64,000 nt of DNA from NCBI GenBank assembly GCA_028554795.2, contig CM068835.1:34628901-34692900 (forward strand), written 5' to 3'. Numbering within the stretch: the stretch's first letter is position 1; each line of letters starts with the position of its first letter. Shown in pieces: positions 12,312 to 43,680 of the stretch. Both the position numbers and the translations under genes were made by a program. The notes below the pieces were generated by a model that was not told the DNA's origin, searched no databases, and was given only the letters and a program-made list of their open reading frames with translations. Source of the stretch: Sinohyriopsis cumingii (taxonomy: Eukaryota > Mollusca > Bivalvia > Unionida > Unionidae).

Positions 12312-12367
12312 CTATGGAGATACATCCAGAATAATGGATTCATTAAGATTTTTAGATATTATCGTCA

Positions 12368-12956
12368 CTAGCGCCAATTTGAAACTGAATGCGGAGAATT
12401 TAATAGCAATTTGATGCAGCCCTTTCTTTTTGTGTTCCGACTCAGGAATCCAGTATGGATGACCTATCTCTCTAAATTTCTCCTGGACATTCGTCCAGTT
12501 TTTGTTCAGTCTCTCAAATGCTTCTTTTTTCTTTCTGTTCTCTTGTTCTTTCCTATCTTTTGCCCATGTGTCTTTAATGTTCTTTAGTTCTTCTTCCTAG
12601 ACCCTTTTCATAATTTCTTCTGCTTTATGAAGTTGGTCCCGTCCCCTTTTGACAAAAGCCCACTCTGACAAATTGAAGATATCATCCAAAAAACACCTAA
12701 CTTTGATAAGAATTTCAAGAGACTGCTTCAGTGTTCCGACTCTTACATATTCAGGCTGGATGAAACCTCTCAACTTCTTTACCTCTTCTTCTATCATCCC
12801 TTCTATGTTCCCCCTGGCTATTTTCAGGTTGTTTGCAAAGTCCAAGGTGCCTGGGGACTTCCATTCTCTTTCAAGTCTTTCCACTACGTACTCCGCATCT
12901 ATTATCTAATACCAACTCTCCTTCAACTTGTTAAACGAGTCAGATACAGCTACCAT
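12368..12956 (-). pseudogene. Helical accessory gene B of the virus-like element, two in-frame stops
   Basis: The frame can be followed from 12,956 to a TAG at 12,368 with only two interruptions, TAG at 12,906-12,908 and TAG at 12,597-12,599, both in the same frame. An ATG at 13,001 is only five bases from the TATA box, so the internal ATG at 12,956 is the more plausible start. The peptide is charged and predicted helical (for example EEEVKKLRGF, then a K/E/R-rich C-terminal third), with an early KLKE motif. I do not recognise its function. The upstream promoter motif is shared with the genes at 21,204 and 39,120, which ties it to the virus-like elements. A hAT copy abuts its 3' end. Confidence 0.5.
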
Positions 12957-13005
12957 CTTCTTTTCGTTTATTCCATAGAATGGCGCGAATGACGGACCCA
13001 TTTTA

Positions 13006-13045
13006 CTTTTATATCTAAGGCACAGACGTGAAGGAAAACATCCCC
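13006..13045 (-). promoter_or_regulatory. Conserved TATA promoter motif, copy at gene B
   Basis: Read on the minus strand this is GGGATGTTTTCC, then TTCACGTCTGTGCC, then a TATAAAAG box at 13,013-13,006. The same order and spacing occur at 21,256-21,295 and 39,173-39,216. The predicted start of transcription is about 12,983. Confidence 0.65.
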
Positions 13046-13715: not shown

Positions 13716-13883
13716 CAAACGTACGTGAGTGCTTACAAACACAAACACTCACACACACACGCACACGCACACACACACACACACACAATCACACCAGGAA
13801 AGGAGTAAGTGTTTATAATCACGCTACTCAACACTCACACCATTTGGCAAATTGAATAGTGTTTCTTTTGTAGAGATTTGGTT

Positions 13884-13899
13884 AGCCCTGAAAAGGGCT
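13884..13899 (-). terminator. Histone-type mRNA 3' stem-loop downstream of gene A
   Basis: On the minus strand: stem AGCCCT, loop TTTC, stem AGGGCT, a perfect six-pair stem with the canonical four-base loop. The 5' flank is A-rich (AAAAC) and the 3' flank is AACCA, close to the ACCCA seen in histone genes. A purine-rich ACAAAAGAAAC lies 11-12 bases further on, where the U7-binding downstream element sits. It is about 230 bases after the stop of the 14,129-14,470 gene, longer than usual for histone messages. Confidence 0.7.
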
Positions 13900-14128
13900 G
13901 TTTTTCTGGAACTACATATGCACCTGGCTAATGGTTGCACCTTCTGGGTCTGGCACCACAGACACAACATCGACTCCAATCCCTTTCCCAATTGATTCGT
14001 GTCCTTAGGAGTGTTGAGGTAGGTTGAATCAATTCACTTTCCCAGTCTTCACTTTCTATTATAGTGAAGACTTCCCTCCTTCTTCTATGCCACACCCGAG
14101 AATGCTGCCCTTGCCGTGGCTCCCGCTG

Positions 14129-14470
14129 TCATTCTAATTCCTCCTCCCAGTTTTCCATTTGGGGGACAGCAGCTCTCGGTACTGGTGGAAGAGGTTGTGT
14201 CTGTGGCTGTGGTGCAGCTACTGGTTGTGGTACTGGAAGTGGTTGTGGAGGTGCCATCACCATAGGTTTCACCTCACACTTAGGTCTCATCATTACGTGA
14301 GACCTGATCCCCCTCTTATTTTTCTCCTCTTCCTTCTGTCTTCTCTCCTCCTCCTCCTGCTCTATCCTGGCTTCTTCCACAATAGTCTCCGCTGCCAGCT
14401 CATTCAGGATGTGCCTGGCGTATTCCAGGTGCATCTGGAGTTCCATTAGTTTTTCCAGTCTGCTACTCAT
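14129..14470 (-). CDS. Helical accessory gene A of the virus-like element (KLxE family)
   Basis: The intact 113-residue frame starts at ATG 14,470. Residues 1-60 form a strongly predicted coiled coil (EKLMELQMHLEYARHILNEL, then an E/R/K-rich stretch). Residues 70-105 are proline and glutamine rich (PQPLPVPQPVAAPQPQTQ), and the end is acidic (NWEEELE). The first ten residues, MSSRLEKLME, closely match the start of the truncated gene at 21,204 (MCSRLAKLNE), which lies beside the element 1 protease. A histone-type stem-loop lies downstream. I cannot assign a function; a small structural or regulatory protein of the virus-like element is an inference. The frame is intact, unlike the polymerase. 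Confidence 0.6.
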   Translation of the reverse strand: MSSRLEKLMELQMHLEYARHILNELAAETIVEEARIEQEEEERRQKEEEKNKRGIRSHVMMRPKCEVKPMVMAPPQPLPVPQPVAAPQPQTQPLPPVPRAAVPQMENWEEELE

Positions 14471-15125: not shown

Positions 15126-15129
15126 CTAA

Positions 15130-16055: not shown

Positions 16056-16167
16056 TATCTAATCTGGTTGGTCCATAGTGAGGTTTATCCTTATTTTACT
16101 ATTTATTGGTATGTTATTATTTTTGGTGTTTATTATTATTTTATTTTTTTATTTATTTTTTTTGTGG

Positions 16168-17283: not shown

Positions 17284-18895
17284 AATGGTTTGTCGGTGTC
17301 ACGTTTACCCGGACCGAGTAGCCCCAGTTTGAAACATGTATAATCAAGGTAATTCTGACAAGCCATCGTTTGATGTTAAACATTGCCGAAGTCTAGCACT
17401 AATCCATTACGTAAGATTGCCGTGGCTAGAAGTGGAGAGCCAGACCTAGGAGCTGCGAGGACGCCAGATAGCCAATTATCACCTAGATGTGGAACCGTTT
17501 GTCCAGATCAAAAGAAGTTGCACGAAGAAGTGGGAGTGTCTTAACTTCTTTTCCCTGCAGACAGACAGCCAGGTTGAACTGGCCGCTAAGACGATTGGAC
17601 AGGGTCACAGCGCCACCCAATCAGAATCGAGATAGGGGAGATACCTTGATTTGGGAAGAATGATATCCCCGCGTCTTCCGGCAAGAATTAGTTCACTAAG
17701 AGAAATTACCCAGAGGAGGTCAGCGTAACTCCGTATAGACATTCGTTATTGGCGGGAAAATCTTAGAACAGGAAATTCTAAGTACAGACAGCTTCAAATA
17801 AGGCCGGTGAACCAGTTGTTCGGTCTTTGCGACTGCATTTTTAATTGTAGGTCGTATGTATACTTTATTATTACTAGAATCGTAGTACGAAGAATTACTT
17901 TGTGGTGTTAATATGTTTGCATATTTTGAAGGAATGAGTTGATATTTGTAAAGAATTATGTAGCTTGCTAGCCGTCGTAAGAGTTAATATTGATATTAGC
18001 TATGTGGGTATTTTATAGTAGACTAACACATGTGTTCGTGTGATTATAGATTTTGCCATTGTTGACTATTTGTGTAATGCACAGACATGCGTCTGATTGT
18101 TGTCAGATTGTAGTACAATGAGATTAAATATATATGTGTATATACTGACGTGACGCAATGTATTGATGTCTGTATGACAATTCGCTGATACCTTGTTAAT
18201 ACGCCATTGTTTACCCTGCAAGGAGTGTGTGGGAATTTCGATGTGTACGCATGCGTGACAGAAACCGTGAAAGCCTTATCTGATGATTAATTGTTGTTCT
18301 AGTGTGAGGTGAAATTCGATAAAACACATGTTAACGACTTGTGGTTTTTCACAGGAAGCTTTGAAGGACAGACCAGTTACAGTTTGGTCCCGTAGTCTCA
18401 GATAGAGAGACGGAGGAAAGGAGGAAAAATGAGAGAAGTCAGGAGAAGTTGAAGTCTAGGAGGAAAAGGGGAGAGAAGGGACGAAGAGGAATTGAGAGCG
18501 GAATTGGAGGAGATATTCGAGAGGGAAACGGAGTCGAAGGAGGTATTGGAGGAACGGAAGGAAGGAAGGAATTAGCGGGAAAGAAAGAGATGAGTAGACG
18601 CAAGGACAGGGGGAAAATCGAACTCACACTGTAAATCACGGGATGAATTAGGCTGTCACTTGGTCGAGGGAAAGACGGGTGATTGAGAGTTTATCGTTTT
18701 AAATTATCGAATTTATTAAATTATTATTAATTGAATTCATCTTCGTGTTCTCTATAATTTAACCGTCGGCATTGCTGACTGGGGGATCAGAGCTGTAAAT
18801 CTACCTCGTCACTAACTTAACTTTCTAACCTCACGAGCCAGGGTGGAACTTCCATCATAATTTAATTAATATATATTGGAAGAACCCCACCCAGT
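17284..18895. mobile_element. Unidentified 1.6 kb insertion splitting the LINE
   Basis: LINE coding similarity stops at about 18,900 (after the RT thumb) and resumes at about 17,283 (before RNase H), so this block is foreign to the LINE. It is richer in G+C than its surroundings and has a purine-rich plus strand at 18,395-18,560. It begins near TGTCGGTGTCACG, which would suit an LTR (TG...CA), but I see no pol frame, convincing primer site or second LTR. Its right end has an inverted pair, GGTGGAACTTCCA and TGGAAGAACCCCACC (about 18,841-18,893), around an AT-rich loop. It could be a solo LTR or a non-autonomous element. Confidence 0.5.
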
Positions 18896-18899
18896 GCGT

Positions 18900-21100
18900 G
18901 CAAACGTCACAGTCACATTTGTCTATCTCTATTCTAGTGGAGTGGGAACTAGAGTGGGATGTTAATCTGACTGCGTATCTTAGAATCAGTTCTTGTTGTC
19001 GGAGATAGAGCGAAAGTTCTCCAGTTAGTACTTGGAGTTCTGTTAGCGATGTTGATGGTAGCGCGCCAGTGATTGTAATGAGACCTTTTCTTTGTATATT
19101 CTCTAATTTATTTAGATGCTGCTTAGATGCTGAGTTGTATATTTGGCATCCGTAGTCTAGTTTGGATCTAATCAGTGCCTTGTATAGTGTTAGTAGTGTT
19201 TATTGATTGGATCCCCAGTCAGTTCCTTTAATGTTTTTGAGGAGGTTGAGGTCCCTATTACATCTTTTATTTAATTCATTGATATGGTGTCCCCAGTTTA
19301 AGTGCTCATCGTAATAGATTCCTAGGAGTCGTGCGAATTTTTCGTACTTAATTTCATGATTTTGTATTGTCAGTTTAGGGAGATGCTGGTTTATTTTACG
19401 TTTTGGGGTAAATATTACGGCTATAGTCTTTTCGTGTGCTAATTTGAAACCTCATTTGTCAGCCCACTTCCATATGTTATTTAAGCTATCTTGTATGTCT
19501 TTAATTATTTTGTTGGTTGGAGGGGTTTCCTGCTCTCCATATTCCACTATCGTCCGCAAATTGCGATATTTCAGGTAGGTTGGATGCCAAGTTCTTATCT
19601 AGGTCATTGATCATAAGGTTGTACAGAATGGGACTGAGTACACTCCCTTGTGGAGTTCCGTTTTCTAAGGTATGTAACTCAGAGTGAGTGTCACCGACTC
19701 TGGTTATTATCTTGCGCCCAGTTAGGAAGTTTTCGATGAAGTTGTACATTTGGCCTGTTATGGCGTAGTGATTTAATTTGGCCAGTAAGCCTTTAGTCCA
19801 CACTAGGTCGAATGCCTTTTCAAAGTCTATGAATACCGCTATGAGGTTCCTGTCTGATTTCCTTTTGAAATTAAATGCCAATTTGATCGCAGTTTCGAGT
19901 CGTACTAGTTGATCCGTAGTGGGTCTTTTGATTCTGAATCCGCATTGGTTTTCGGATATTAGATTGTTTCGTTCAAGGTGAATTTTTAGTCGACTAGTGA
20001 TGATAGTTTCCATAATTTTGCATATGTTGTTTGTTAATGAGATCGGCCTATATGAGCTGGCATTATTGGGGTCTTTGTTTGGTTTGAGGATCACCACATC
20101 ATTTTTCCATTTATTGGGTAGTTTTCCTGTTTTCCATATTTGATTTAGTAGTTTAACTGCAGTTTGTTAGATGTTAGTTGGTATAATTTTGTACATGATG
20201 TATCCTTTTTGATCTTCTCCAGGTGATGTTTCCTTTTTTGATCTTACTACTTGGTCCCATTTGTATGTTGTTATATCTTTATTTAGGTTGGATTCTTTTG
20301 GTCCAAGGTCGCTAAATAGGTTTTTATGTGTTTGTTCTACTTTGGATCTGTGTTGCTGAAATGAAGTAGTGTGGTTTTGGTTACTACTCATTTCTGAGAA
20401 GTATTTTGCTAATTGATACGCTTTTTCCTTATTGGTGTTGGCCCCTGGGATTTTAAGGGTACAGTTAGTTGTTTTTCCCTTAATTGCTTTGATTTTGTCT
20501 CATACTTGCTTAATGCTAGTTTTGATATTGATGTTAGTACAATCCTATTGCCAGCTGTTCACTTTGGCTTGTTTGATTATGTTTTTTAAGTTCCTTTTCT
20601 CTGTTTTGTAGTTGTTAAAGTCTAAAGAGTTACCTGTATGTCTAAATTTATTGAGAGCTTTTTTCTTTTCTTTATGGGCTAGTTTGCATTGTTCACTCCA
20701 CCATGGGACGGTTTGTTTATTTGGTTTGCCACTAGTTCTTGGAATACTTGTGGTTGAGGATTGATTGGTAATATTAATTAGGTTGTCATAATAGATATTT
20801 ACATCTTCATTCTCAATTTCCCTGGGGCTGACTTTGTTTAGTTGTTCTTTAAATAATTACCAATTAGCGTTTTTACAATTCCACCTAGGTTGAGTTTGAA
20901 GGGAGTTAAACTGGACTGTCATCTGTAGGGTGGTTATCAATGGGAAGTGGTCGCTCCCAACTGAGTCGGTTTGATCCACCCTCCATTCAGCCACCTGTGC
21001 TATTGATGGTGAGCATATGGTAAGATCGAGTGCAGTTAGAGTTCGATCCTCAGGGTTAAGGCGTGTTCTGGAGCCATTGTTTAGGTCTTCAGTGACTTTT
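18900..21100 (-). pseudogene. LINE ORF2, endonuclease C-terminus and reverse transcriptase
   Basis: Read on the minus strand. The C-terminal part of an APE endonuclease is at 20,860-21,090 (LTALDLTICSPS, then GSDHFPLIT). A linker follows, then RT motifs: SYRPISLTN (about 20,050), FIDFEKAFD (motif A), GTPQGSVLSPILYNL (motif B) and QFADD (motif C), with a thumb region down to about 18,950 (SKLDYGCQIY). In-frame stops interrupt it at several places (near 20,550, 20,500, 20,167, 19,453 and 19,204). The copy is 5'-truncated within the endonuclease: upstream of about 21,100 the frame reads into a gene of the virus-like element. It therefore inserted after that element did. Confidence 0.85.
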
Positions 21101-21204
21101 AACATTCTGACATTGTCTGTCTCTTCAGGCTTCAGTATCAGACTTTGTCTGATACTATGCAAATTCACGTAGGCTTCGTTCAGCTTGGCTAGTCTTGAGC
21201 ACAT
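21101..21204 (-). pseudogene. 5' end of a KLxE-family gene (A'), cut off by the LINE
   Basis: From the ATG at 21,204 the peptide begins MCSRLAKLNEAYVNLHSIRQ, which matches the start of the 14,470 gene (MSSRLEKLME) and, more weakly, the 39,120 gene. A second ATG at 21,228 is only about five bases from the predicted transcription start, so 21,204 is preferred. After about 30-40 residues the frame passes into LINE endonuclease sequence. The exact junction is uncertain by a few tens of bases. Confidence 0.55.
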
Positions 21205-21255: not shown

Positions 21256-21295
21256 CTTTTATGGCAAAAGCGCAGACGCGAAGGAAAACATCCCT
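21256..21295 (-). promoter_or_regulatory. Conserved TATA promoter motif, element 1 copy
   Basis: On the minus strand: AGGGATGTTTTCC, TTCGCGTCTGCGC, then TTTTGCCATAAAAGC with the TATA box at 21,263-21,256. It shares more than 30 positions with the copies at 13,006 and 39,173. The predicted start is about 21,233 and the gene starts at 21,204. Confidence 0.7.
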
Positions 21296-21607: not shown

Positions 21608-22080
21608 TTAAGACAAAAGATAAGCATAATGGTCACAGAACCATCGATCAACTTTGTCATCGTTTCTAGAAGAATGACGATCAAAATAAGTCACTAAATG
21701 TTCTAAAGAATATCCCAGACTGCGATGATGCAGAAAATACACACAATATTGTCCACACACCAATGAATCTGTGCCTTGTAATCTCACATTATTGAATCGT
21801 GTGGTCTGAGCATTTCTTCTCATAAAGTCGATGATATCGTCTTCCAAATGGGACAATCCATACCAATCGAAATATTCCACACATCCTTCTTGAGGAAAGT
21901 AGACGGCTACCCAGTAGGTTCCTGGGAGATGACTGTCGTCCGTGTTGATCACATAAGCTTGATGGTCTTGAGGTTTGCGATGAGGGAGTTCATCTTTAGC
22001 ACATAGGACAGGATTCCAAGAAGCAGTGTACGAACTGTGTGGTTCAAAAGGTAATAAAGTTCCCAGGTATCCATGTTTGT
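21608..22080 (-). CDS. Adenain-like cysteine protease (probably inactive)
   Basis: The family matures capsid precursor proteins inside the particle. The domain reads INTDDSHLPGTYWVAVYF, EYFDWYGL, then GTDSLVCGQYCVYFLHH. The nucleophilic cysteine is present in the VCGQYC segment and an acidic residue in EYFD. The position where this family has its catalytic histidine (before the tryptophan of PGTYW) is tyrosine, which should abolish activity. The frame stays open upstream to beyond 22,080 but has no in-frame ATG. An ATG at 22,074 sits in another frame after a run of A, so the start is probably shifted. The upstream gene ends at 22,094, a tight late-gene arrangement. Confidence 0.8.
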
Positions 22081-22093
22081 GTTTTTTTTTTCT

Positions 22094-22625: not shown

Positions 22626-23033
22626 TCAAACTATTAATTTTAGGGTATTATCGAATTCGGCATACAGGAGGACGTTCACTGTCTGGGGTAGAGGTTCTGC
22701 AAACTGAAGTTCCACACGCAGTTGACCAGATTTTATAGGGCGGAAATGTCCCTCGTCACTGCCTTGGTCTGGAGTGAAATAAAAAGCCCATAAAGCATAG
22801 CCTCCTGCATAATCGTCGTACGAAATGCCGTGACTGGTGTTGGTCCCTAATTGTTCGGTGGCTTCGTACAGAGAAAAGTACGATCTCAAGTAATTCCTGT
22901 CACCAAACTTAGGCTCGAAAGGTCGGGTACACAATGCCTTGCCATCGCGACTGACTTCAATTTTGGAGACTCTGTAGTGCTTAAACTGGAATGGAGTTTG
23001 ATCGTAGACTCCGTTGAGTGCTGCATTGCTCAT
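22626..23033 (-). pseudogene. F54H12.2-family capsid-like protein, C-terminal third only
   Basis: The 135-residue frame matches the C-terminal end of the F54H12.2 family, the capsid-like protein of animal Polinton-type elements: SNAALNGVYDQTPFQF at the start and LLYAEFDNTLKLIV at the end. The family is usually over 400 residues, so about two thirds is missing from the N-terminus. The missing part has a counterpart in element 2 (41,525 down to 40,950). The first ATG overlaps the stop of the upstream frame by four bases (ATGA at 23,033-23,030), so the remnant could still be translated, but it cannot be a full capsid protein. Confidence 0.75.
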
Positions 23034-24078: not shown

Positions 24079-24884
24079 TGAAATGAGTCGCCACTGATTG
24101 TCTTTACGTCGTATCAACTTGAGGACAGGCATCACGCGTCGTGGAGGGGTTCGCAACGGACTAAATAGAGTCATTTCTTGCTTGGACAAATCCAGTAAAC
24201 TCTGTAGCATGCCCGATCTCTCTTGGACTTTGATTTTGGGAGCAGGTACTTTGCGAGCAGCTGCCACTGCCACTAAAGAGGAGGGTGTCGCCACTGGAGG
24301 AGAAGTCCTTGGAGACACGGGCTTCCATGGGGTCAACAACGGAGAAGTGGATGAACCTGAGGCTACTGGAGAAGCGGTCACCGTCGTTGCAGGTCGTGTT
24401 TGGCGAATGTCTGGCCGAAGTGCCTCTTGCGGGTAGAAGCTGTTTTCTGTGGGCTTTTCTTTTTCTGGGGTTGTGACCTGGTCTTGACACCGTTGCTCTT
24501 TTTCTTCTTGGGACTTCGGTTGGCTTTTTTGGGACTGGCTTTTTTCTTGGGGAGAACTTTGGGGGCATTAGGATCCCATCTTAAGAGAGAGCGAATGATG
24601 ACACCTCCTAGTTTCAAAATGATTTGCTTTTTGGTTTGAGTGTCGATGCGGGGATCGGCCAGTTGGGTCAAGGCTACTTTGTTTCTATCAAAAGAGCGTT
24701 TGGTTTGATGAGGAATCCAAATGATGCCTTGCAGTAATTGACATGCTGTCACTGTAAACCATCGTAAAACTTCTATGAGACTGGCTTCTAAGACACGAGC
24801 ATGTATTTGTGGATTTTGTTCGCGAGTGATACCATACAAGGCACGAATCAATTTAACGGGAAGATGAGACTGAAGGGACGTCAT
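24073..24884 (-). pseudogene. Lysine-rich core-like protein, one frameshift
   Basis: Starts at ATG 24,884. The first 110 residues are helical and hydrophobic/basic (LPVKLIRALYG, then LILKLGG-type text). Next comes a lysine/proline-rich tail (PKKKASPKKANRSPKKKKSN) that resembles a histone-like or viral DNA-packing tail. The frame stops at 24,378. From there a neighbouring frame continues without loss as an S/T/P/A-rich stretch and a conserved SLLDLSKQE segment to 24,073. Element 2 keeps the equivalent order (basic tail, then SLLDVSKQE), which supports one original gene broken by a single-base shift near 24,380. A condensing role on the packaged genome is inferred from composition. Confidence 0.6.
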
Positions 24885-24940: not shown

Positions 24941-25667
24941 TTAAATCGAGGACGGAGACATGTACTGGACAGGACCTTCGTCTTGACACCAGTTGTGAAA
25001 CAAATGGGTACGAAATCGCAGATAATCGGGGGTCGTAGGTTTCAAATCGACGAGTAAATAGGCGTGTGGAGTTTGAGTGGCATCGTCGTACGCCTGAGTT
25101 AGCCAAGGCGTTCCTAACTGTTTGGCTAAGACTTGCACTTGCGAGTTATCTCGAGGGCTTTTAAACAAGACCACGTAATGAACGTTGAGACTGATGGTAT
25201 GATGGGCTTTACCTTGTTGAAACAAATTTTGAGTGATGTTAATGACACTGGCATTACGATGATGCTCTTTGCGCGTAAACCAGTTTAATTTCTTCTTCGT
25301 CTTCTCCTAACATGTCGTCGAAAATGACCAGATGGTTTTGACCGGGGTCAGACACGATTCCGTCGTCTTCGTTTGGAATGCCTTCCACAAACACGATGGA
25401 ATCGCCTTGACTTTCTCGCAAGAGGCTGTACGCCGATTGCTACTCTTTGTAACATCACACGATTCATTGAGGTGGACGATCGATCAAATGATGTTTATGT
25501 TCGATCAAACGTTTGACACATTCGGTTTTGCCTGAATCGCTAGGTCCAGCAATGAGCATGTTAAAGGGATGACGAAGGTACAAAGCCTCCCAACTGGCAC
25601 GATCTAAGTGTTCGTCGATGACTTTGAAAGTGGAGGAAGAGGGAGCAGAGACATCAGAGGTAGCCAT
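24941..25667 (-). pseudogene. FtsK/HerA-type packaging ATPase, broken
   Basis: Starts at ATG 25,667. The P-loop is visible as LIAGPSDSGKTECVKRL (about residues 38-54), preceded by ALYLRHPFN. The family drives the genome into the particle using ATP. The first frame stops at 25,464. An acidic Walker B-like segment (LVIFDDM) can be read in another frame around 25,310. The C-terminal half (TISLNVHYVVLFKSPRD, then YLLVDLKPTTPDYLRFR) is read in a third stretch down to 24,941. At least one stop and two frame changes therefore inactivate it. There is no counterpart in element 2, which is deleted across this gene. Confidence 0.8.
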
Positions 25668-25713
25668 AGTATCAGGAATGTCACTTGTGACACGAAGACA
25701 AACAAGACAAGAG

Positions 25714-25722
25714 CTTATATAC
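25714..25722 (-). promoter_or_regulatory. TATA box for the ATPase gene
   Basis: GTATATAAG on the minus strand, about 50 bases before the ATG at 25,667. Confidence 0.55.
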
Positions 25723-25739
25723 TTTTTCAGGACACGTTA

Positions 25740-26046: not shown

Positions 26047-29000
26047 CTATTGGCCTTGGACGTTGTCCCTTTTTATATGCTGATTAATATCTACGTGACC
26101 GACCGGCAAAATGAAGTGATTGGTAAGCCTCACTCGCTTCTGGTACACGAATTGATAGACTTTTTCCAGGGTCGACTGACGATTTGGTGAGTGGGTAAAC
26201 GTACAATCTTGTTCGGTTGGTGAGTGGTCACTTTAGAGTTTTCATCCTCTCCAGACTATAAGGCTTCTTTCAATACCCCAAAGTTGATCACTCGACTGGT
26301 ACGATAATTGAGAGTCAATCCTTTCACTTCACACTCGGTGTGCCCTAATCATTGTGGGTCCCGGTATTCGTAGCCGTAATTTTTAACACCGCCACTATCG
26401 AAACTTAGAATCTTGTCGTCGGGGTGCTCGTCTGTCCAGGCTCCTAATCGGTCTCCTTCGATGTCAGGGTGACTTTGACCCGGGCGATGGATGTAGATGC
26501 AACTGTCCGTGCCAAAGTACAGGACACGATCCCCTAACAGTTCTAAAGCTTCGTACAATTTTAAGCGAGCATGGGCTGTCACGTAAGCCGCAATGATGAC
26601 ATTTCCGAATTCGTCGGCTTGTACAAAGTCCAGATCTTCTTCGTAATTGACTAAGATCAAACCCTCACGAACGACGTCCACGTGTTTCATGTGTTTTTTT
26701 TTTTGTCGTGAATCATCTGGAAGTTGCGGGAAGGTTCTGTCAAATACTCTGTCTTGGGTAAACACGATCGTTGTGCCATTTTGCCCCACAAGCAATTTAA
26801 CATCACTTTGGCAAACAATCCCCTGCCTTCGTTTTTCTCGATGTAGTCCAAAGGGATGCCTTCCTGTTCCCGGTATTTTTCTTTGAATGCCTTTTCGTCT
26901 TCGCAAGTGTGACACCAAGAAGGATAGCCGCTGGCTTCTTGTTTCAGTTTCAAAAACGCATCCACATAGTCTGCGAAAATGCCTTTCTGAGTGGGGTCAC
27001 CCTTGTGGTATTGTTGTGTCTTGGGAAAGTGGTAAATTTCGTACACTTCTAACAGTTGGTATCCCAAGTCCAGAGCCTTGAACAATTCCACGCTGACCCA
27101 CGTTCCAATCAAGGCGCGTTCTTCCTGGGTGTGCTGACAAGGCTGGTTTTGGTTGCACATTTCGGCACAAGTACGGCACAAAGGAAACATAAGTTTGCCT
27201 TGGCAATGGTGAGGTAACAAGGGATGGTACAAGTCTGTGGGAGGCAAGACTTTGCACTTGATCAACCCTTCGTATTGTCGAATGTGGTCCAGGTCGATGT
27301 GTTCCGTCAGCAATTACGGGTGCCCTGCAGGAAAGCGACAATATTTGCACACGTAAGGATACAGTGAGCACACGTCCAAGTATTTGATTGCTTCTCCTTT
27401 CTCTTCGTCAGCGTGGTACAGCAAACAGGTGGCATTTGTCCTACCTCTGTACAAACTCTCCCTCGGGTTCAGGGGGTCCATCAACTTGTAACTTTCCACG
27501 ATGCGTTTAAATTCGGGATCGATTTTCAAACGGTGATCGTACTCGTGTTCCAACATTTCCACCACTTGGTATCCTTGATGTTCTAACTTCACACGTCTCT
27601 GACAAGTGGCCTGGTACAAGTCTTCCATGGTTCGTTGTAAAATCTGACTTTTAGTGCCACGTTCAGGGTAGCAGAGGGGACATCCGTGAAATAAGCAACC
27701 GTTAAACTCGTACACGATCTTGGGGTTTTCTAAGTCCCAGCCATCCACCGAATACGTTTCAATGGTCTTCTCGCCCCCTCCAATGTGGGCATGCTAAATC
27801 CATTTGTCTTCCTTGTCGCACAAGTAATGTAACCAGCGTAGGGCTTTCACCAAGTATTGACGTTTGACAAAGTTGGTCTTTTGAGGACTGTTTTCAGGCA
27901 TGAATCGTTGGCGATACACTAAGGAACACGATTTGGCAATGGTGCAGGCTTTTTACAAGGGATCGACCCCTCCGTGTTCCTTGAACAGTTCTCGAAATCT
28001 TCGAAATTCTCGAAATTTTCCACAACAACGCCGTAAAATGTCCTCGTCGGAACGACAATAATTTAACATTTCTTCCTGAATGTCGAAAGGGTCTGAGGCG
28101 TGAGCCTGGTACCAAGCGTAGAAAGTTTCTAGTTGTTGGGTACGCATGTTGTCGGGGTCGTAGCCGGCAGCCTCGGGCAAATGGGTTAGAACGGCATGTT
28201 GATTGGCTTCCGTATTGAAAAAGTGTGGAAAATAGCCTTTGGCCATTTCTGTCATCCCAAACGTTTTAGGCATTCGACTCAAAGGCATGGCCAAGTAACT
28301 CACCGAATCTTTAAACTGTACTTGTCCCACTTGCATCTTCAGTATAGTACCTCAAAAGAAACTGTCCATCGTATCCTGAGAAATTGTGGCCATCACCGTG
28401 GCATGGCGATGACAATCTGCGTAACGTTCGATGTCCTCTTGGCTCCACGTTTTGTCGATGGGGTCTAAGACCCATCGGGCAAAACCGGCCAGAGTGTTCG
28501 GTCCCCGAAAGATTTTTTCACGTCCTCCAGAAATCTTACTGCAGTCAGGGCAATGACTAAAGATAGGCTCTTGAATGCACTTTTCACACGCTCGATGAGC
28601 CACACAGAAATTAGGAATGTGAATGCCGGTCTCTTGCATGCATTCGAAATCGAAAAAGATGAAATTGCCTTTCGTCTTGTGGTCCTCATCTTCCTCTTGT
28701 TGGGGCTGTTATTTTTGAATGGAGTATTGATGTTCCAAGTCCACGATTTGGTGACAAATGTGACATTTTTTCTTTCCTTGACATACGTGTGCCTTGGCAT
28801 TATTGGTACGTATGCCTTGTCCAACCGTGGGGCACAATCTCAGGAGTTGACAAGCACATTTCTGCTGTGAACCTTGTGTCTTTAGATGTTGTTGGTAACA
28901 GGCAGGGCTGACAAAATTGCGCTGACAAGCTGAACAATGCACTCATTCTTGTCCTTCGTCCAGACAGGGTTGAGAGGCCAAACATCCTGAGCATTTCGAT

Positions 29001-29937
29001 CCACAATGTTTGTGTTGCTCTCGATTGTTATAGCCATAGTCACTTTCAAGGTGTAGCGTGGAGCTAGGACATCTTGCAATTTGTGCATTTCAGGAATGCC
29101 ACAGGGTGTGTCTTTGGACAGGCCGGCTTGTTGTAACAGGAGTTCTGCTTCATTTCGTTGTTTGGCTTTGTCCGATTGTCGAATAGTTTTCCAGGCTCAT
29201 TTCCATTCTGCCGTGTCGTTCTTGTTGGCATAGGTTCGTCCCACCACGATGGCTCGGGCTAAACACACCTGGTCATGAGGGTTATTAATTCCGGCGAGGC
29301 TTGTTTTGGTGTTACGAAGGTCGTCCACCAATAAGACCTTTTTGCGTCCAGTCCCTTGAGGAGGAGAGACGTGGGTCATGGACAGTGTCGCTTTACCATC
29401 GGTGATGTGAAACTGGTCATTGGATTGTTGTACCTGTTGAATCTTGTCCATGACTTTGGAAGGTGTCAGTTCTGCGGGGCTGATAAACTCGATCCAAACA
29501 GGAGATTTCAAGCTGTCGTGATGTATGGAACGTCTCAAGCAATTGTCTTCTTTGGCTTGGCATTGACGTTTCAGTGTGGTAAACAAGGAATCCCACATCA
29601 CGGTGATAAACCCTTCCGCTGTCTCCAACAGTTCGTCGGACTTGAAATCTTTAAAATTCGCCCTGTAAGTGTAGGCCGTGGTTCTAAATTTTCTAGAGGA
29701 GCGCTTTTCCGTCTCTCGAATGTGATAGTAATTATCTGGGTTTACTGATTAACTTTGGCTAGGTGCAGACTCTGTGGGTCTGGATTCTGGTTCACTCAGG
29801 TCATCTTCAAAATCACTGGCATGAATTTGTGCCAAGACTTCAGCTATTGTACGAGGCGATAGATCACGTTTCTGCCTCTTTCTTTTTCTTTCTTCACGAA
29901 TGGATGCAATCGTTTCATCTTGACTGCAAAAGGTCAA
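26047..29937 (-). pseudogene. Protein-primed family B DNA polymerase, heavily broken
   Basis: A polymerase of about 1,300 codons can be followed from 29,937 (no in-frame ATG) to a TAG at 26,047. Exonuclease motifs: FFDFE (Exo I, about 28,660); an HN...GYD block out of frame near 28,375 (Exo II, bracketed by two compensating one-base shifts and a TGA); YCRSDEDIL (Exo III, about 28,055). Polymerase motifs: YLDVCSLYP (A, about 27,380); KVMLNCLWGK (B, about 26,790); LYFGTDS (C, about 26,510), where the usual first aspartate is glycine. A Cys/His cluster (CSACQRNF) lies at about 28,930. Stops occur at about 29,749, 29,197, 28,706, 27,950, 27,796, 27,313 and 26,346, with shifts near 28,930, at the T-run at 26,693 and near 26,170. 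It is non-functional. Confidence 0.9.
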
Positions 29938-30000: not shown

Positions 30001-30206
30001 GGTGTCTGTCTTGCCCTTCCACTATTCATTTCACTCTCATTGTATCAGAATAGACCTGGCATAAAACGTAAGTGTCTCTTAGTTCTAGAATAAGAACCTA
30101 CAATCATATACTCATACATTCACACATACCATAGGGGTAAAAAGGGTTTCTGAGTCTTAATTGATGTTGGCAACTGAAATACTATCTCTTTTCGAGAGAA
30201 ATGGGT

Positions 30207-30222
30207 GGCCCTGAAAAGGGCC
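30207..30222 (-). terminator. Canonical histone-type mRNA 3' stem-loop of gene X
   Basis: On the minus strand: flank CAAA, stem GGCCCT, loop TTTC, stem AGGGCC, flank ACCCA. Every part matches the metazoan histone consensus. About 15 bases on is a purine-rich GAAAAGAGATAG, in the place of the U7-binding histone downstream element. It lies 68 bases after the stop of the gene at 30,291, a normal distance for histone messages. Confidence 0.9.
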
Positions 30223-30290
30223 TTTGGGTATTTGTTGGTTTAAATCAACTTTAACTGTCTTAAGCCTTTGCCACGGGCAAGGCCTACTTT

Positions 30291-30824
30291 TTATTTGCGC
30301 CCTGTCGATGATGTTTGGGTAGAAATCACTAAGGGTGGTGTGACCGGCGTAGTCACAGGGTTGGATTGTTTAGCTCGGGAAGGTCTTTTTCTCTTCGGTC
30401 GTAATAAAGAAGTCTGATACATTTTTTTCAGACTTCTTAACTCTGCTAAAATGTCTAAAATTACCGTGACTGATTGACTTTCACACCCTTGTTTCTTCGC
30501 TGCTTCTTCTTCCTCCTGTCGTTGTTTTCTTCTTATTTCTTCTTCTTGCTGTTGTTGAAGAAGAAAAGCTTGTTCTGCTTCCTTTTGCTGCTGTATAAAT
30601 GTTTCCAATTCTTCTTTGTTTGAAATGATCAGCGAGTGGTAAGGAAGGAGAAGGTACTGGTACCGGAACAAATTCTTGCGAGATAAGAAATTCCACAAAA
30701 TCCGAATTAAAATTAGTCTCTTCTGAAGTAGCACCGTGTTCACTTGGGTAGTCGTTACTATTCCATCGCTTCTCGTCTCCACGACCGGTGCATCCCCTTT
30801 CATCGTCTTCTGAGTTTCCGTCAT
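30291..30824 (-). CDS. Accessory gene X of element 1, coiled coil plus basic end
   Basis: I do not recognise this gene; it is not a core histone. The 177-codon frame starts at ATG 30,824, about 24 bases after the predicted transcription start. Residues about 74-130 are a Q/E/K-rich coiled coil (EEIRRKQRQEEEEAAKKQG). Then comes LDILAELRSLKKMYQTSL, a basic patch (RPKRKRPSRAKQ) and a T/S/P-rich end. Between about 30,735 and 30,640 an overlapping frame is more protein-like (NFNSDFVEFLISQEFVPVPV), so two compensating shifts or a short intron are possible. It ends in a perfect histone-type stem-loop and starts from a CCAAT/TATA promoter shared with gene Y, implying S-phase-linked expression. Confidence 0.55.
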   Translation of the reverse strand: MTETQKTMKGDAPVVETRSDGIVTTTQVNTVLLQKRLILIRILWNFLSRKNLFRYQYLLLPYHSLIISNKEELETFIQQQKEAEQAFLLQQQQEEEIRRKQRQEEEEAAKKQGCESQSVTVILDILAELRSLKKMYQTSLLRPKRKRPSRAKQSNPVTTPVTPPLVISTQTSSTGRK

Positions 30825-30872
30825 GATTGAAAACGGTGTCGCATGGACTGACTGCACACAAACGCTAGCGTC

Positions 30873-31000
30873 TCTATATAGGGAATGTGACGTCACAGAC
30901 TGCTCTCTTCGGATTGGACATGAGGTGACTTAGTTTTGTAACGCGTGTTTGGATTGGTCAACCAAATGAATCCGTTTCGATCCTCCCTTCCCCTATAAAC
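30873..31000. promoter_or_regulatory. Divergent histone-like promoter between genes X and Y
   Basis: Minus side: TATA box CCCTATATAGAGA (30,883-30,873), a CRE TGACGTCA (30,888-30,895) and two CCAAT boxes (ATTGG on plus at 30,913 and 30,953). Plus side: TATA box CCCTATAAAC (30,991-31,000), with the same boxes upstream. Two TATA boxes facing apart with paired CCAAT boxes about 40 bp apart between them is the arrangement of divergent H2A/H2B gene pairs. Confidence 0.7.
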
Positions 31001-31106
31001 AACCGCAGTTCGCTGCATTTGTTCACCTGTTCTCGTCACCAACATGTGGACTGACGTATAATCCTTTATTCTCGTATCGTCACTGCTGTTCTGTACGGAC
31101 TTACCC

Positions 31107-31277
31107 ATGTATGTCAGATCATCGTGGGTCATTGTTAGAAGGTCGGATACAAGCGTTTGGAAAAGAAGAATTTATGTGGAGAGAGAAGGCTGTTTAAAGA
31201 GAGTTATAATCTACGGACCAGAAGTCAGACAAAGTTTGAGGAAAAGAAGAAGACCAATGCTATGCCCTCTTTCTTAA
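31107..31277 (+). CDS. Accessory gene Y, 56-residue arginine-rich protein
   Basis: Frame from ATG 31,107 to TAA 31,275-31,277. The product is small and very basic (about 12 R and 3-4 K in 56), ending RQSLRKRRRPMLCPLS. The predicted start of transcription is about 31,023; one short upstream ATG (31,051) opens a five-codon frame. A histone-type stem-loop begins 27 bases after the stop, as in histone genes. A parallel frame ending at about 31,290 also has K/E/R-rich text (SYNLRTRSQTKFEEKKK), so frame choice is not certain. A DNA-binding peptide is plausible from its charge; no family is recognised. Confidence 0.4.
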   Translation: MYVRSSWVIVRRSDTSVWKRRIYVEREGCLKRVIIYGPEVRQSLRKRRRPMLCPLS

Positions 31278-31303
31278 CGGAAGGATGTTAACATAAAGCC
31301 AAA

Positions 31304-31320
31304 GGCCCTTTTCAGGGACC
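31304..31320 (+). terminator. Histone-type mRNA 3' stem-loop of gene Y, slightly decayed
   Basis: Flank CCAAA, stem GGCCCT, loop TTTC, stem AGGGACC. One base spoils a pair near the stem base. A purine-rich TCGAAAAGAAATGAC follows 11-12 bases later, in the position of the U7-binding element. It is on the plus strand, opposite to the stem-loop at 30,207. Confidence 0.75.
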
Positions 31321-31379
31321 CTCATAGGTCTCGAAAAGAAATGACTTTCTTGCCTCAAAATATTTTTTAAAAATGTGGT

Positions 31380-31954
31380 ATCAGTGTTTGTCTCTTGTCT
31401 GTTGTCTGTGTTATCTCCATCTCCCATGCTCATTTTCCCTTGACACTATACAGTCCCACGATATATTCGCATGTTAAATTCACCCTTGAGGCTAGAGTTG
31501 CCCAGGGTGTACCTCAAAGTCTTCAGGTTATACATCCTCAGAGCGGTCTGTAATGCTAATTCCCATTGAGGTTATAATTGTTAGAGGGGGTCTGTAATGC
31601 TAATTCCCACTGAGGCTATACATTTTGAGGCTATAATTGCTAAAGGGTTTTGTAATGCTAATTCCCATTGAAGCTACGATGGCCCACTACACTACTTATA
31701 ACACCACCCAGTCAATAAAACACATCAGGCAATTCAACTGAGCCATCAAAATGCTTACTCTTTCCCTTCACGGTTAAATAGAAAATTAATCAGCTCATTT
31801 AATCATAACTTGATTTACTAACCTTTTCTTAAATAAACACGTTAATTTTCGTTAGAAAGAAGGGGCTGATCTTGGGCCTAAATTTAAACAATGCACACGA
31901 GCATTGGATTATCTTGAAAATAGCATCTGCTTGAAGATGTTCGCTTGTTCTTGC

Positions 31955-34679: not shown

Positions 34680-35013
34680 ATGGCACTGCCGCTGTTTATC
34701 CACTGTATATTTGTACTGATTGTGTGTAATTTTACGATCGCCAGTGATACCAAGGAAGATGATATTGCTATTCTTGTTCGAAGGCTGAATGAGCTACAGG
34801 AAAAATACGAGTTGAAACTAAATAGCATGGAACAAAGTCTTAACCTGGCAAATATACGTATACAGGAATCCGAGGAACGGATTCAAGGGTTAGAGAAAAA
34901 ATTGGAATCAAGGAAAGAGAACGGTGATCAAAATGATTCGGGACTACAAGCGACACACTCTCTTTCTTCCAGAAGTAAAAGTGGTAACCAACATTTAAAA
35001 AGCACACCTGAAG
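34680..35013 (+). CDS. C1q-domain protein, exon 1 (signal peptide and coiled coil)
   Basis: Begins at ATG 34,680 (an earlier in-frame TTG is ignored). Residues 1-21 are a signal peptide (LPLFIHCIFVLIVCNFTIAS). Residues about 25-80 are a heptad-like coiled coil (ILVRRLNELQEKYELKLNSM), followed by a polar linker. A donor AAG|GTAATT follows 35,013 in phase 1. A second phase-1 donor, CAG|GTTAGC, follows 35,073 just before the stop, so alternative splicing is possible. Phase matches exon 2 at 36,056. The product is a secreted lectin-like trimer-forming protein of the C1qDC family, which is expanded in molluscs and linked to immune recognition. The promoter region is hemmed in by an inverted LINE. 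Confidence 0.8.
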
Positions 35014-36055
35014 GTAATTTTTCATGGAATGGCTTCAGGAATGAAGAGAAAAAAGCGCAGTTATTTTCATCAGGTTAGCAGAAGACAAACAGAATATAAT
35101 GGTTCAACCTAGAGACAAGCAATCATTTAAGCAGGCGTGGGTATGGTATATTCTGTCAAAACAAACACTATAAATTTAGACCAGTATTATATCAAGGAAA
35201 ATTTACAGTATTTTCTTTATTTGGATAAATTAACTAGTTACAGTTTTATTTGAGAAAACAAAATGAAGATGAAAAGACAAGAGCAGGAAATAAAATTTAA
35301 ATTAATAAGTTTTCCCGTTACATATTAGCACGTATCGTTAGTCCATTGTACCATTAATTAATTTATTAAGATGAGTTCTGGTACCAAACCGAAAAGAATA
35401 CGACTTTGGCACCAACATTATCAACCATGATCCCGTCATAATATTTGCGATCATCGAAATTATGCTCACAGCTCTAATCGGAGGTCAGTAACAACTGTTC
35501 TTTTTATATAAAATTGTTGGCTACCTTATTTTCAGTCCAAATATTATTTCAACTACTTTAGCTACCTCAATATTTATGGTCGTGTTTCCTCATGATCCTA
35601 AGAGATTTAAGACGGCGTTTGTGTCCACTTCTTTTGCAAAAGGTGATATTGTGCTGGCTATGTAGAAGGATTATTACTTATCAAAATAAAAACTTAATAA
35701 GAAATAATTTATCATTGTAACGCCATTTTCTGAAATATGCATGAATATCGTCTTAGAGTCAAAACAAGTTTTAAAGAGCAAGCACGTGCATATATTAGTT
35801 TACTAACCCACGACATTTGTGTTTGTTTTTGAATCTCTCTGATACATCAATAACGAAGGTGGATCTAATGAGGTCCAATCAAACGGACACACTTCTAACT
35901 TAATTTTAGAAAATGAAAAAATAAATGATTTAGTAAAGACTTAGCAATCTAGCGACAATTTATAAAAAAAACAATATCATTGCATGTTTAAATTGTTAAA
36001 TGAATTTACAGCAGAACACGTTTTCGAGTGTCGGTAACCTCGTCATTATTTTTAG
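35014..36055 (+). other. Intron of the C1q-domain gene
   Basis: A GT...AG interval of about 1.04 kb, AT-rich, ending CATTATTTTTAG. No nested gene was seen. Confidence 0.65.
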
Positions 36056-36492
36056 ATTTCAGGGTACGTAAATCTTCCAATGGTCAAGCAGTGGCATTTT
36101 CGGCATACGGAGATTGTGGTTACAACTTTGGACTGTCTAACCATGAAACTTTCCCTTTTGACAAAGTTCTAGTCAATGTAGGAGGTGGATTTAGTGTGAA
36201 TATTCATATGTTTGTGTGTCCCCTGTCAGGTATCTACTTTTTCACTAATACAATGACTGGGCTCCAACATAAAGTCGAGACAGAGATAGTCCTGGAAGGA
36301 GTTACACAGGCTATTACCACAACTGGAGAAGGACAATTTAACCAGGGTGTAAATTCCGCAGTCATCCATTGCCTACATGGTCAAAGGGTCTGGGTTCGGG
36401 CATGGCAGGCTGTCAGTGGTGGCATATATTGTCAGCATTGGTCCACATTTTCTGGCTTTTTATTGTCCCTGGATGACGTGTCGACCTCGTGA
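36056..36492 (+). CDS. C1q-domain protein, exon 2 (globular C1q domain)
   Basis: Joined in phase 1 to exon 1, this exon encodes a complete C1q/TNF-like beta-sandwich: QAVAFSAYGD at the start, then FNQGVNSAVIHCLHGQRVWV and a closing STFSGFLLSLD. YNFGLSNHETFPFDKVLVNV and PLSGIYFFT correspond to the usual early strands. Stop at 36,490-36,492. Length and end match the family. The frame begins before 36,056 only because the intron end happens to be open. Confidence 0.9.
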
Positions 36493-40477: not shown

Positions 40478-41525
40478 CTATATTAAAAACAACCAAGTCT
40501 CCTCAGGTTCCTTGTGTTCCATCATTTTGTAATGGTCTAGAATCACTTCCCTCAGACTGTTGATTTCCAGGGTATTGTCAAATTTTCTGTACATGATGGT
40601 GTTTATTGAGATGGCTAGAGCTACTGAAAACTGAAGTTCCCACGAAGTCGACCCGATATTATGCAGTGGAAATCCTCTTCGTCGCACCCTTCGTCTGGAG
40701 TGAAATCCCAGCCCCACAAGGCATATTGTCATGCAATGTTAGAGTACGAAACACAGTGGCTCGTGTTGGTACCTAACTGTGCTGTGACCTGAAGCAGTTC
40801 GTCTGGGCAAAGTCAGGCTTTGTCTTGTACACAACGCCTAGGCATCTCAAGCAACTTCTATCTTGGTCAAGTTAACGTGTTGAAACTCGAAAGGATCTTG
40901 ATCAATGGCACCGTTGAAGGCTGCATTATTGACGATGCCGATGAGCAAATGAATGGTTAAATGGCATTGTCTCGTTAACTGTCTTTAGAAAATACGATCT
41001 TCGAACTTGGATTGGGCTGCAGAGGTAGCTGTGAATGTTTTCTCTTCCACTTGTCGTGCCGGATACTTTTCAGTCGTTATGATCAAAGTTTGAATGATGC
41101 CCTTTCCTACTTTAGTAAAACGACCACATTGCACACTTACGTATGGCATCGTTGACGATGCTATTGCACTCTTAGCATTGACCATCCAATAGAACTTTGA
41201 TTCATTCTCAAGCCTGCAATTAGTTTGTTATTCAATTATAAATCCACGTCGCTAAGCAACGCATACATGACATTTTGACAGGAACTACTCTGGCATCGGT
41301 ACTTCGATTAGTGTTGTCCACTTTCAGAACTTTCACTTTCAGGTACAAGTGATTGCTATTCTTATCGATGTAATATTTGGTTCGTCCTTTGATTTTGCAA
41401 TTGATAAAGGATGAGGTGGTCAAAGATGACACAGGATGCAATGTCCTTGCCTTGCACTTGCTACGTCGTTGAAGAAGCAATACGTCTTGGCCAGAAGTGT
41501 GAAGCAAATTTAGGCTATGTTTCAA
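40478..41525 (-). pseudogene. F54H12.2-family capsid-like gene of element 2, broken but longer than in element 1
   Basis: Blocks in order on the minus strand: FINCKIKGRTKYYIDKNSNH and LYLKVKVLKVDNTN (about 41,420-41,330, N-terminal domain); EKYPARQVEEKTFTAT (about 41,070, middle); NGAIDQDPFEFQHVNLTKIE (about 40,920) and FDNTLEINSLREVI (about 40,590, C-terminal end). Stops and frame changes fall between the blocks. The N-terminal and middle blocks are exactly the parts missing from the copy at 22,626-23,033. It ends with extra acidic codons (EHKEPEETW) that the element 1 copy lacks. Confidence 0.75.
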
Positions 41526-41529
41526 CGAC

Positions 41530-43000
41530 CTTAAGATTTTTTGTGGTTTGGAGCAACCTATTTTAACTCCTATCTTAAAGATTTCCTTTAGATTTTGTAT
41601 TCAATGGCGACATTTTGAATAAATAATTTCCTTTTTGTCAACGCGATATCGATTAAAGCATGCAATCTTTGAGCCACCTATGGTTTAAAATGGGTTATAC
41701 CTTACGAAAATTCATTTTAACGTATTTTCTAAACCATTTCTTCGTTGTCGAGCGACTCCTCTGGTACACAGGATGCATTGGTTACAATTCACTGAGAATC
41801 GTTTTAGATGTGACAGTTCCTTTCCAGTATCGAATACTTTGTCCAAGATCTCCTTTTATATTAATGCTGATGTTGTCTGCTGATGTTGTCAAAATAACAT
41901 TTACTGACAGGAAAATATATCCTAAAATGTATAAATACAGTGTGAGCGTGATATGTATTTCTACCTTTCCACTTTGAAGTGTATGGCTCAGAGTAACGGA
42001 ATGGCTGTATTTACTCGACCACATCAGAATGCTAAAATAATAAATCGAATCCTTCGTTCAAGTCCAGCTATTCCAAATAACTCAAAAATCTGTTGTCAAA
42101 TGTGGGTTTGATTTTTCTAATATGAATCCAATCTCCAGTCCTTAACATATCTTTATCTGGGGCAGTAGGTGACATTCCAAACAATCGATCAAAAACCATC
42201 ACTCCATTTTGGAGGTTGCTTCTTTGGGTTCAAATTTGACATGGTACTATTGATGGTAAGCGTTGACGAGATTTGCTAAAAATGTCAATGTACTTGAGAT
42301 TGTGCTAATGTATTTTTCAATTATTTTTGCAAAGCTGAGTTCATCATTGAGAATGACGACCACTTTGTTTCAAAACCAGTTTTATAGTTCATGCTGAGAC
42401 TCTGAATTTCGAAGTCAATGAAACGACTCAAGTGATTTTCACATATAAAAAGACAGATATTTGTAACCAAGAATTAGGCTGCCAAATAAGACACATCAGC
42501 AAAATCTACTTGCCATTGACGGTTGATGCCAGCCAGTATGATTTGACTTCTGAAAACATTTACGTTCAACGGGTTTGCGTAAGTTGTACGTCGATTGTTC
42601 TTCTAATTATTATCACACATCTGGTAAACATACACTTTTAAGTTTGATATGAGCACCACGATACAATTTTTTAACTCCTCTGGAACCGGCAGCATGTGCA
42701 GCATTGTAATAAATGCTTGCTAAAAGTGGTGATGGGATCGGCTGTGGTTGTTGCTGATTTTCAATAAGTTAACCAACTGCTAATGCTCTTTGGTACGTGT
42801 GGTTTTTTAATTGCAATCGTTACGTGTCCAACGAGCAATAACTGTAAAGGGGTAATCGGTTCCAGTTTGACTTTTGTCTTTACCCTTGTCCTATTTTCTT
42901 GTGCTGGCAAGTGTGTACACATTGTCTTTTGATTCAACATCTCTTGGTGTAATTGTTCACTTCAATATTTTGTTTAGCTGGTGGAGTTTTAAACTCTTCT
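41530..43000 (-). other. Element 2 segment with no counterpart in element 1
   Basis: Between the capsid-like and MEGRKL remnants element 2 has about 1.4 kb where element 1 has a direct join. Broken minus-strand text includes MVFDRLFGMSPTAPDKDMLR (about 42,200) and YYNAAHAAGSRGVKKLYRGA (about 42,710). The position suggests a second virion protein gene, but I cannot assign it. Confidence 0.4.
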
Positions 43001-43019
43001 AATTATTATTTTCCTTTCT

Positions 43020-43324
43020 CCATCATCCCCACAGCTGTGTGAGTCTTCGTGGCTTTTGGCTCACTTTTCATAATAGTCTTGACATCTCTCAGAGTGGGTA
43101 AAGCTGTTACGTCTAAAGCTTACTGATAAATCGTTGAAGACGTTGCAATACTTGAATATACAGTTGAGAGTCTTCTGTTTCTGACAAATCAGTTCGATGC
43201 ATCAACAATTGTAATTCTTGCTGTAACTGTGAGATATCGTTGAGGTGATTCGGAAGCAAATGAGATATCCGTTGTTCGATATATATCGTTAGTATGAAAC
43301 AAAAATGAGTTTTCGTCCTTCCAT
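43020..43324 (-). pseudogene. Element 2 homologue of the MEGRKL protein
   Basis: Starts MEGRKLIFVS at ATG 43,324, matching MEGRKLALVP at 23,569. Several stops follow within 100 codons, and the helical middle can be recognised only at the nucleotide level (CGTTGCAA, GTAAAGCTGTT). Confidence 0.65.
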
Positions 43325-43359
43325 AAGATTCAAACGTACAAGTATAATGTCTTTCCAGG

Positions 43360-43560
43360 GAAGGGTCTCATTTCTTCTTAATCGTTGTTTCCGTACATTG
43401 CAATAAGTTATCGTTCCTTTTAAAATATTCAAACACCATCCACACACTGTGTCGATGATTTCTTTGGGTGCTGTTCTTTATGATTTGTCTTCGCATCGGA
43501 GGAGTGGGTTTAGTCCTTACCCAACAAATATCCCAGAAAAAACAAAAAAGGAGTCCATTT
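43360..43560 (-). pseudogene. Element 2 remnant of the pX-like gene
   Basis: A short CWMVFEYFKRN-type and LNILKGTI-type reading (43,400-43,450) corresponds to CCLNVLKGTI in element 1. The hydrophobic tail is not recognisable. Confidence 0.5.
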
Positions 43561-43680
43561 ATTTTCCCGTTTGGGTGGTACGTTGTATGTTGTGACGGCT
43601 CAGAGGATGGTATGCACATTTACTTGGTCATATCTTTTGTTTGAGGTGCAAATGCACTAAAGTGAATCGTATTACATACT

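Follow-up and report, generated by a model that had tools for sequence, protein, structure and literature searches.

The 64,000-nucleotide stretch of Sinohyriopsis cumingii DNA analysed in this study (hereafter the window) contains a Polinton/adintovirus-like element. On its minus strand lies a family B DNA polymerase of the viral/organellar type, now in pieces (26350..29907), two of which match PolB_2 (PF03175, 1e-7 and 5e-7), the polymerase by which a Polinton/Maverick or an adintovirus is recognised. It is accompanied on the same strand by pieces of a packaging ATPase (25257..25736; Walker motifs GPSDSGKTE and HLVIFDDM, FtsK_SpoIIIE 0.0027, under the cut-off), a basic core-like protein (24381..24884; 10 homologs, P0004-P0013), a protein that we take to be capsid-like (22629..23033; 3 homologs) and a piece of an adenain-like cysteine protease (21611..22093; Pfam C5 0.074, under the cut-off). 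In comparison with PDB, the protease piece matched S273R (0.014) and adenovirus-type proteases (0.37-0.84), the latter alongside two antibody chains (0.35-0.36), and its AlphaFold model (pLDDT 38) was too poor to serve as a structure-search query.

The PolB_2 polymerase is a feature shared with Polinton/Maverick elements, adintoviruses and other adenain/PolB viruses. The putative pieces of packaging ATPase and adenain-like protease, the distance of approximately 17-22 kb between end motifs and the probable terminal repeats (see below) would be further points of likeness to these viruses. On the other hand, no retroviral-type integrase was found among the 20 window peptides scanned with Pfam, and the present element possesses a class of genes with histone-type 3' ends that distinguishes it from them. 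Nine proteins had no match in PHROGs, and no relatives were detected in viral_contigs via the capsid-like piece, the polymerase piece, the stem-loop pattern, the core-protein alignment or the X alignment. A histone fold was also considered for the core protein but found no support, as only weak PDB matches were obtained (the best being ribosomal protein S9 at 0.0013).

Six small gene families (designated X, R, A, B, C and D) are shown, at the level of sequence, to end in a histone-type stem-loop, D being the least sure of them. Gene X (30291..30864, minus strand) is broken in the window, with coding stretches in two frames; it is about 200 aa long in relatives, has 19 metagenome homologs (P0014-P0032, alignment A3; E down to 3e-44) and adjoins the virus polymerase in many loci. 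Gene R (31044..31277, plus strand), which was found by tblastn in 32 loci including the window, has a stop after five codons followed by an open 56-aa frame from 31107, and its open frames in copies encode a basic protein of 76-80 aa. Gene A (13931..14470, minus strand; recognised by tblastn and open frames) has an in-frame stop at 14129-14131, and its open frames in copies span 94-150 aa. Gene B is a remnant with stops inside (12315..13001, minus strand; tblastn, 204 aa in a relative), cut beside an ORF at 11481-12311 that is presumably a hAT-like transposase, and no stem-loop was found 3' of this remnant. Only the 5' part is left of gene D (21085..21204, minus strand; inner boundary approximate), which is interrupted by a LINE; by eye, its residues are the same as those of the frames preceding D-type stem-loops in three other loci (L048, L055 and L057). 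D is located upstream of A in six loci and has the least certain reading frame, and the proteins of A, B and C are charged and coiled-coil-like. The window copy of the element is broken, with the polymerase, X, R, A, B and D all damaged.

Several other features were noticed in the course of this comparison. The LINE that splits gene D lies at approximately 14500-21090 on the minus strand and carries ORFs that we take to encode RT and RNase H; the stretch from D to the start of A is apparently missing. In one locus (L066:2138-3086), the protease frame continues without a stop into gene B, which ends in a stem-loop. A reading of gene B itself as a LINE ORF1 was dropped because B was found behind A and with a stem-loop in other copies. 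Pieces of a presumably C1q-like gene are present at 34680-36492 and pointed to a bivalve-like host. The same virus class is represented a second time at 40532-45788 by a copy in a more advanced state of decay, whose pieces have 65-77% nucleotide identity; a search that allowed up to three mismatches found no stem-loop in it, and genes X, R and A-D were likewise not recognised there.

Histone-type stem-loops in the window and across the genome

The first-pass annotation of this DNA had claimed that two genes end in histone stem-loops, each followed by a purine-rich element, and both kinds of signal are indeed present. The stem-loop of gene X (30207..30222, minus strand) is perfect, with a 6-bp stem and a TTTC loop (RF00032, 39.2 bits; E 5.2e-8 over the whole window), and that of gene R (31304..31319, plus strand) has one mismatched pair and scores 20.5 bits, under the gathering score of 34 bits. 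A third stem-loop, which belongs to gene A (13884..13899, minus strand; 25.3 bits, E 3.2e-4, also under gathering) and has an A-U closing pair, was absent from that annotation and was reached via comparison of the window with itself. Searching the window for the 16-mer with up to three mismatches gave five matches compared with 0.59 expected, a number attained in none of 100 shuffles; the stem-loops of X, R and A differ from the 16-mer by 0-2 mismatches, and the near matches at 38767 and 62614 (three mismatches each) look like chance occurrences. Approximately 14 nt 3' of all three stems there is a GAAAAGA- or CAAAAGA-type purine run which, by its letters, is HDE-like (X, 30185..30193, minus strand, GAAAAGAGA; R, 31333..31341, plus strand, GAAAAGAAA; A, 13862..13870, minus strand, CAAAAGAAA).

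The genome to which the window belongs (2.90 Gb, 1,138 contigs) was then searched for the stem-loop. The matches scored with RF00032 were the best 75 of 589,472 first-look candidates and were therefore picked for good stem-loops. All 75 were viral: the gene before the stem was R in 29, X in 23, B in 12 and C in 11 by tally, and a histone gene in none. Each of these loci was examined (47 as 3- or 4-kb stretches and 28 as 330-base stretches), and H2A, H2B, H3 and H4 queries had no match in them at E 0.01. The exact 26-mer around the stem occurs 4,502 times in the genome (2,230 forward and 2,272 reverse), compared with 0 for the backwards-read control. With regard to RF00032 scores, 32 viral ends fall between 35.5 and 44 bits and six ends in a host histone stretch between 35 and 39.4. 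The gathering score is reached by the ends of X, R, B and C and is missed by those of the A/D type (none of 12 such ends in seven loci is above the Rfam cut-off) and by window R. The A-U closing pair is present in full form in 12 of 16 A tails, including that of window A, as well as in six pattern-found D-type ends, and the others have G-C.

Each locus had been chosen by one stem-loop, and the tails of the other genes in the same loci (partner tails) played no part in that choice. A stem-loop with up to two mismatches was found in 45 of 48 partner tails (X 20/21, R 10/10 and A 15/17), among which 13 of X, 9 of R and 10 of A were perfect; the best hit in shuffled stretches had 6-8 mismatches in 1,879 of 2,000 cases and never fewer than three. 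The misses could be explained, as the A cases in L008 and L078 are antisense matches and not A tails, and the X gene in L060 is truncated. Thus, the stem-loops are kept in related elements, both by the best scored matches in the genome and by the partner tails. Within 120 nt behind open frames, the strict stem-loop pattern was present in 16/18 for X, 23/23 for R, 9/13 for A, 2/3 for B and 3/4 for C, and the distance from stop to stem was 15-36 nt in 49 of 53 cases (7, 66, 68 and 86 nt in the remaining four). The stems of host H3, H4, H2A and H2B lie 30-38 nt past the end of the matched coding region.

Comparison of open frames over pairs with dS of 0.15-1.5, which are not independent of each other, gave dN/dS values of 0.13 for R (149 pairs, median dS 0.99), 0.23 for A (53 pairs), 0.17 for C (5 pairs) and 0.44 for X (19 pairs), B being left out with too few frames. 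These ratios indicate constraint on all four of these genes, and the copies compared show that, where tested (X, R and A), the predicted stem-loop has been kept while the genes diverged. None of the X, R, A and B pieces had a histone match in Pfam, and, on this evidence and that of the H2A, H2B, H3 and H4 queries in the 75 loci, the stem-loop genes do not have a core or linker histone as their product.

Some additional observations were made in the same searches. In L049, L046 and L073, further stem-loop genes were found near X/R pairs, such as a C gene beside R, which suggest tandem or rearranged elements. A conserved stretch, AGTACTTTTCAGGGTT, was observed at L043:960, L044:3004, L051:84, L064:3064, L073:953, L076:2971 and L078:647. 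It has no HDE after it, and in six of these seven cases a polymerase N-terminal region adjoins it on the other strand. In prokaryote genomes, the stem-loop pattern gave three matches near bacterial genes, none above the Rfam cut-off, and these were rejected; a histone-like hairpin with an ACC flank was seen near bacterial genes in Gastranaerophilales MAG contigs (L001:372, L002:2637 and L003:5376).

Downstream elements, promoters and the host histone genes

Host histone genes are organised in tandem units of approximately 8.3 kb, mostly on small contigs, and in the host stretch H4, H2B, H2A, an H1-like ORF and H3 are all on one strand. The purine-rich element by which an HDE is recognised is found at the viral ends, 91 of 97 copies having a run 13-16 nt 3' of the stem, AAA[AG] in the 46-nt tail having been an entry condition for these 97 rows. 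A CTAGAAAAGA-type tail element is common to viral and host histone ends at similar spacing, and the tails align. In the host, the pattern script fits H3 only (15), and by eye the runs begin 14-15 nt after the stem. The likeness of viral to host tails beyond the HDE, which equals the shuffle maximum for H2A and is below it for the others, is only suggestive. A search for the host U7 RNA gave no match, the controls being silent as well.

Stem-loops were not found in the window behind the polymerase, ATPase, core, capsid and protease pieces, nor in L066 behind the p167 gene and the capsid-like gene. The 3' ends of this virus would therefore fall into two classes, since stem-loops are missing from the genes for polymerase, capsid and protease as far as these were inspected, a contrast that covers the window and this one other locus; these genes would use ordinary poly(A) ends. 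AATAAA is present at 21426, approximately 180 nt behind the window protease piece, and at 30290 in the window copy of X. Across the 97 viral copies, it was seen up to 200 nt 3' of the stem in 11 (19 when ATTAAA is included) and up to 200 nt 5' of the stem also in 11.

The divergent promoter shared by X and R (30825..31043) contains the TATA/CCAAT/CCAAT/TATA arrangement that had been noted at first, and in addition a TGACGTCA site. The X-R interval was compared in 31 copies, one of them that of the window; two CCAAT were found in 30, the R-side TATA in 31, the X-side TATA in 29, TGACGTCA in 28 and all four in 25. This promoter is conserved, without detectable relation to host histone promoters. 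Its proposed likeness to the divergent promoter of H2A/H2B pairs had to be abandoned: H2A and H2B are tandem in the host, and alignment of the region to the host unit remained at shuffle level.

The more general claim of a histone-like promoter holds for the element and fails for X and R. Upstream of A, B, C and D there are boxes of about 20 bases which are common to host H2B, H4 or H1 promoters, with exact identity over 24/24 bases when a C copy is compared with host H2B and over 21/21 when an A copy is compared with host H4. Six A/B/C upstream stretches score 41-48, where 30 shuffles of each reach at most 30-36; two controls score 21-26. In the window, the box of B (13025..13042, minus strand) is like the host H2B box in 17/18 bases, its score of 31 being equal to the shuffle maximum of 31, and the box of D (21270..21292, minus strand) is like the host H1/H2B boxes (score 34 versus a shuffle maximum of 28). 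By pattern count, an H2B-type box is located upstream of A in 7/11, B in 4/6 and C in 9/10, and of X and R in 0/31 and 0/32, respectively; an H4-type box is found upstream of A in 9/11 and in no other gene family. In the host, the related box is found 62-84 nt upstream of the start codon in H4, H1 and H2B; it is partial in H2A and missing in H3. A putative histone-type promoter, namely a shared box at a similar distance from the ATG, is present in A, B, C and D, for D on the evidence of one sequence. The shared box resembles what we take to be the HINFP motif (CGTCCGC).

The ends of the element and the role of the signals

Subterminal repeats and the probable right end of the element are located at 31550..31698 (plus strand; TGCTAATTCCCA and CACTACTTA) and are similar to those of other copies. 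In pooled copies, the tails of R and of B/C are alike for approximately 65 bases outward from just before the stem and are then followed by similar repeats, because of which the 3' end signal is probably placed at the inner edge of the terminal repeat at both ends of the element. The stem-loops of X, A and D are internal and have their own tails, and those of R, B and C adjoin the probable terminal repeat. The first 100 places listed for the motif are all on a single contig; outward-facing pairs among them are spaced at 16.9-22.2 kb in 19 cases and at 0.8-1.1 kb in five, and seven pairs under 23 kb have other orientations. The longer spacing matches element ends and the shorter one X/R pairs. 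In many loci, subterminal repeats of approximately 40 bp were also seen on the outer side of R and B/C stem-loops.

The stem-loop genes resemble metazoan replication-dependent histone genes in the stem-loop, its flanks, the HDE and its spacing, the distance from the stop and the shortness of the genes, as well as in the promoter boxes that A-D share with host H2B/H4/H1; in contrast to them, the viral proteins are non-histone and the genes are dispersed with the virus. It is our view that a Polinton/adintovirus-like virus family, integrated at very many places, probably runs one class of its genes in the manner of replication-dependent histone genes. The signals are almost certainly real, selected and the property of the virus, and there is a strong case that they would direct histone-type 3' ends; that they tie the genes to S phase appears likely, with somewhat less assurance. 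According to this model, host SLBP and U7 snRNP would cut the transcripts a few bases past the stem, histone-gene factors would switch on the stem-loop genes, and the mRNAs of X, R and A-D would be poly(A)-free, stable and translated mainly in S phase. We lean slightly towards a more complete version, in which an early-type gene class would have been rebuilt from promoter to 3' end on the host histone pattern; its mRNAs would be produced in the histone locus body, carry no poly(A) and be present during host DNA copying, and its 3' signal would sit inside the terminal repeats.

On the other hand, the hairpin might be a DNA element of the virus ends, used in replication, packaging or integration, and not an mRNA 3' end at all, and both the similarity of the R and B/C tails with the repeats that follow them and the 19 outward-facing pairs, spaced as for element ends, would be expected under such an explanation. 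However, we consider it unlikely, as the internal stem-loops of X, A and D retain, on the sense strand, their stem, their loop and the distance to the HDE, the stems of X and A lie mostly 21-36 nt behind a stop, and neither the U7-type element nor the histone promoter boxes would be explained. A DNA role may be allowed for the hairpins of R, B and C because they adjoin the probable terminal repeat, and a double role as DNA element and mRNA 3' end is possible.

It could also be argued that the signals are relics of an old capture which no longer work, the mRNAs being polyadenylated, in agreement with the presence of AATAAA near some copies; this seems improbable to us, considering that stem, loop and HDE are kept between copies at an R dS near 1. 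Slightly less credible still is the idea that what the signals provide is constant expression without poly(A), or a place in the nucleus at the histone locus body, instead of S-phase timing: the part shown here consists of sequence signals, which are compatible with other timing, but the histone 3' ends and promoters of the animals studied are coupled to S phase. Finally, one might suppose from the resemblance of promoter boxes and 3' ends to host histone genes that the region is what is left of a host histone pair or array next to the element. This can be practically dismissed, given that H2A, H2B, H3 and H4 had no match in any of the 75 loci (47 longer, 28 short; E 0.01), that X has metagenome homologs and is placed next to the virus polymerase in many loci, and that the host histone genes are in tandem units found mostly on small contigs.

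Because no such histone match was found and the genes are under constraint (X, R, A and C), the X-R region is not a decayed histone pair, and the initial proposal of a virus-like element with non-histone genes on histone-type 3' ends, kept in its relatives, is borne out. To our knowledge, histone-type 3' ends have been thought nearly private to replication-dependent histones. Among the matches listed in the mollusc, Polinton and virus literature, the term histone stem-loop had zero occurrences, and no title or abstract opening listed reported viral or Polinton-like genes, other than histone genes, with 3' ends of the histone type, most subscription literature lying outside this scope. Adomaviruses encode histone-like proteins (Histoid), one of them from a clam dataset, and the term stem-loop is absent from the main text of that study (PMC11071296). 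Such viruses, like others with viral histones, are similar to the present family in making use of something histone-related; there it is a histone-like protein, whereas here it is the expression signals, placed on non-histone genes.

If our reading of the 3' ends is correct, the viral genes would be natural non-histone substrates for SLBP/U7 processing. First-look histone candidates in the same genome number 662, compared with 4,502 exact 26-mers, which raises the question of whether the element competes for, or tunes, the host histone machinery. If the coupling to host DNA replication also holds, this family would show a means, new among DNA viruses, of linking gene expression to S phase.
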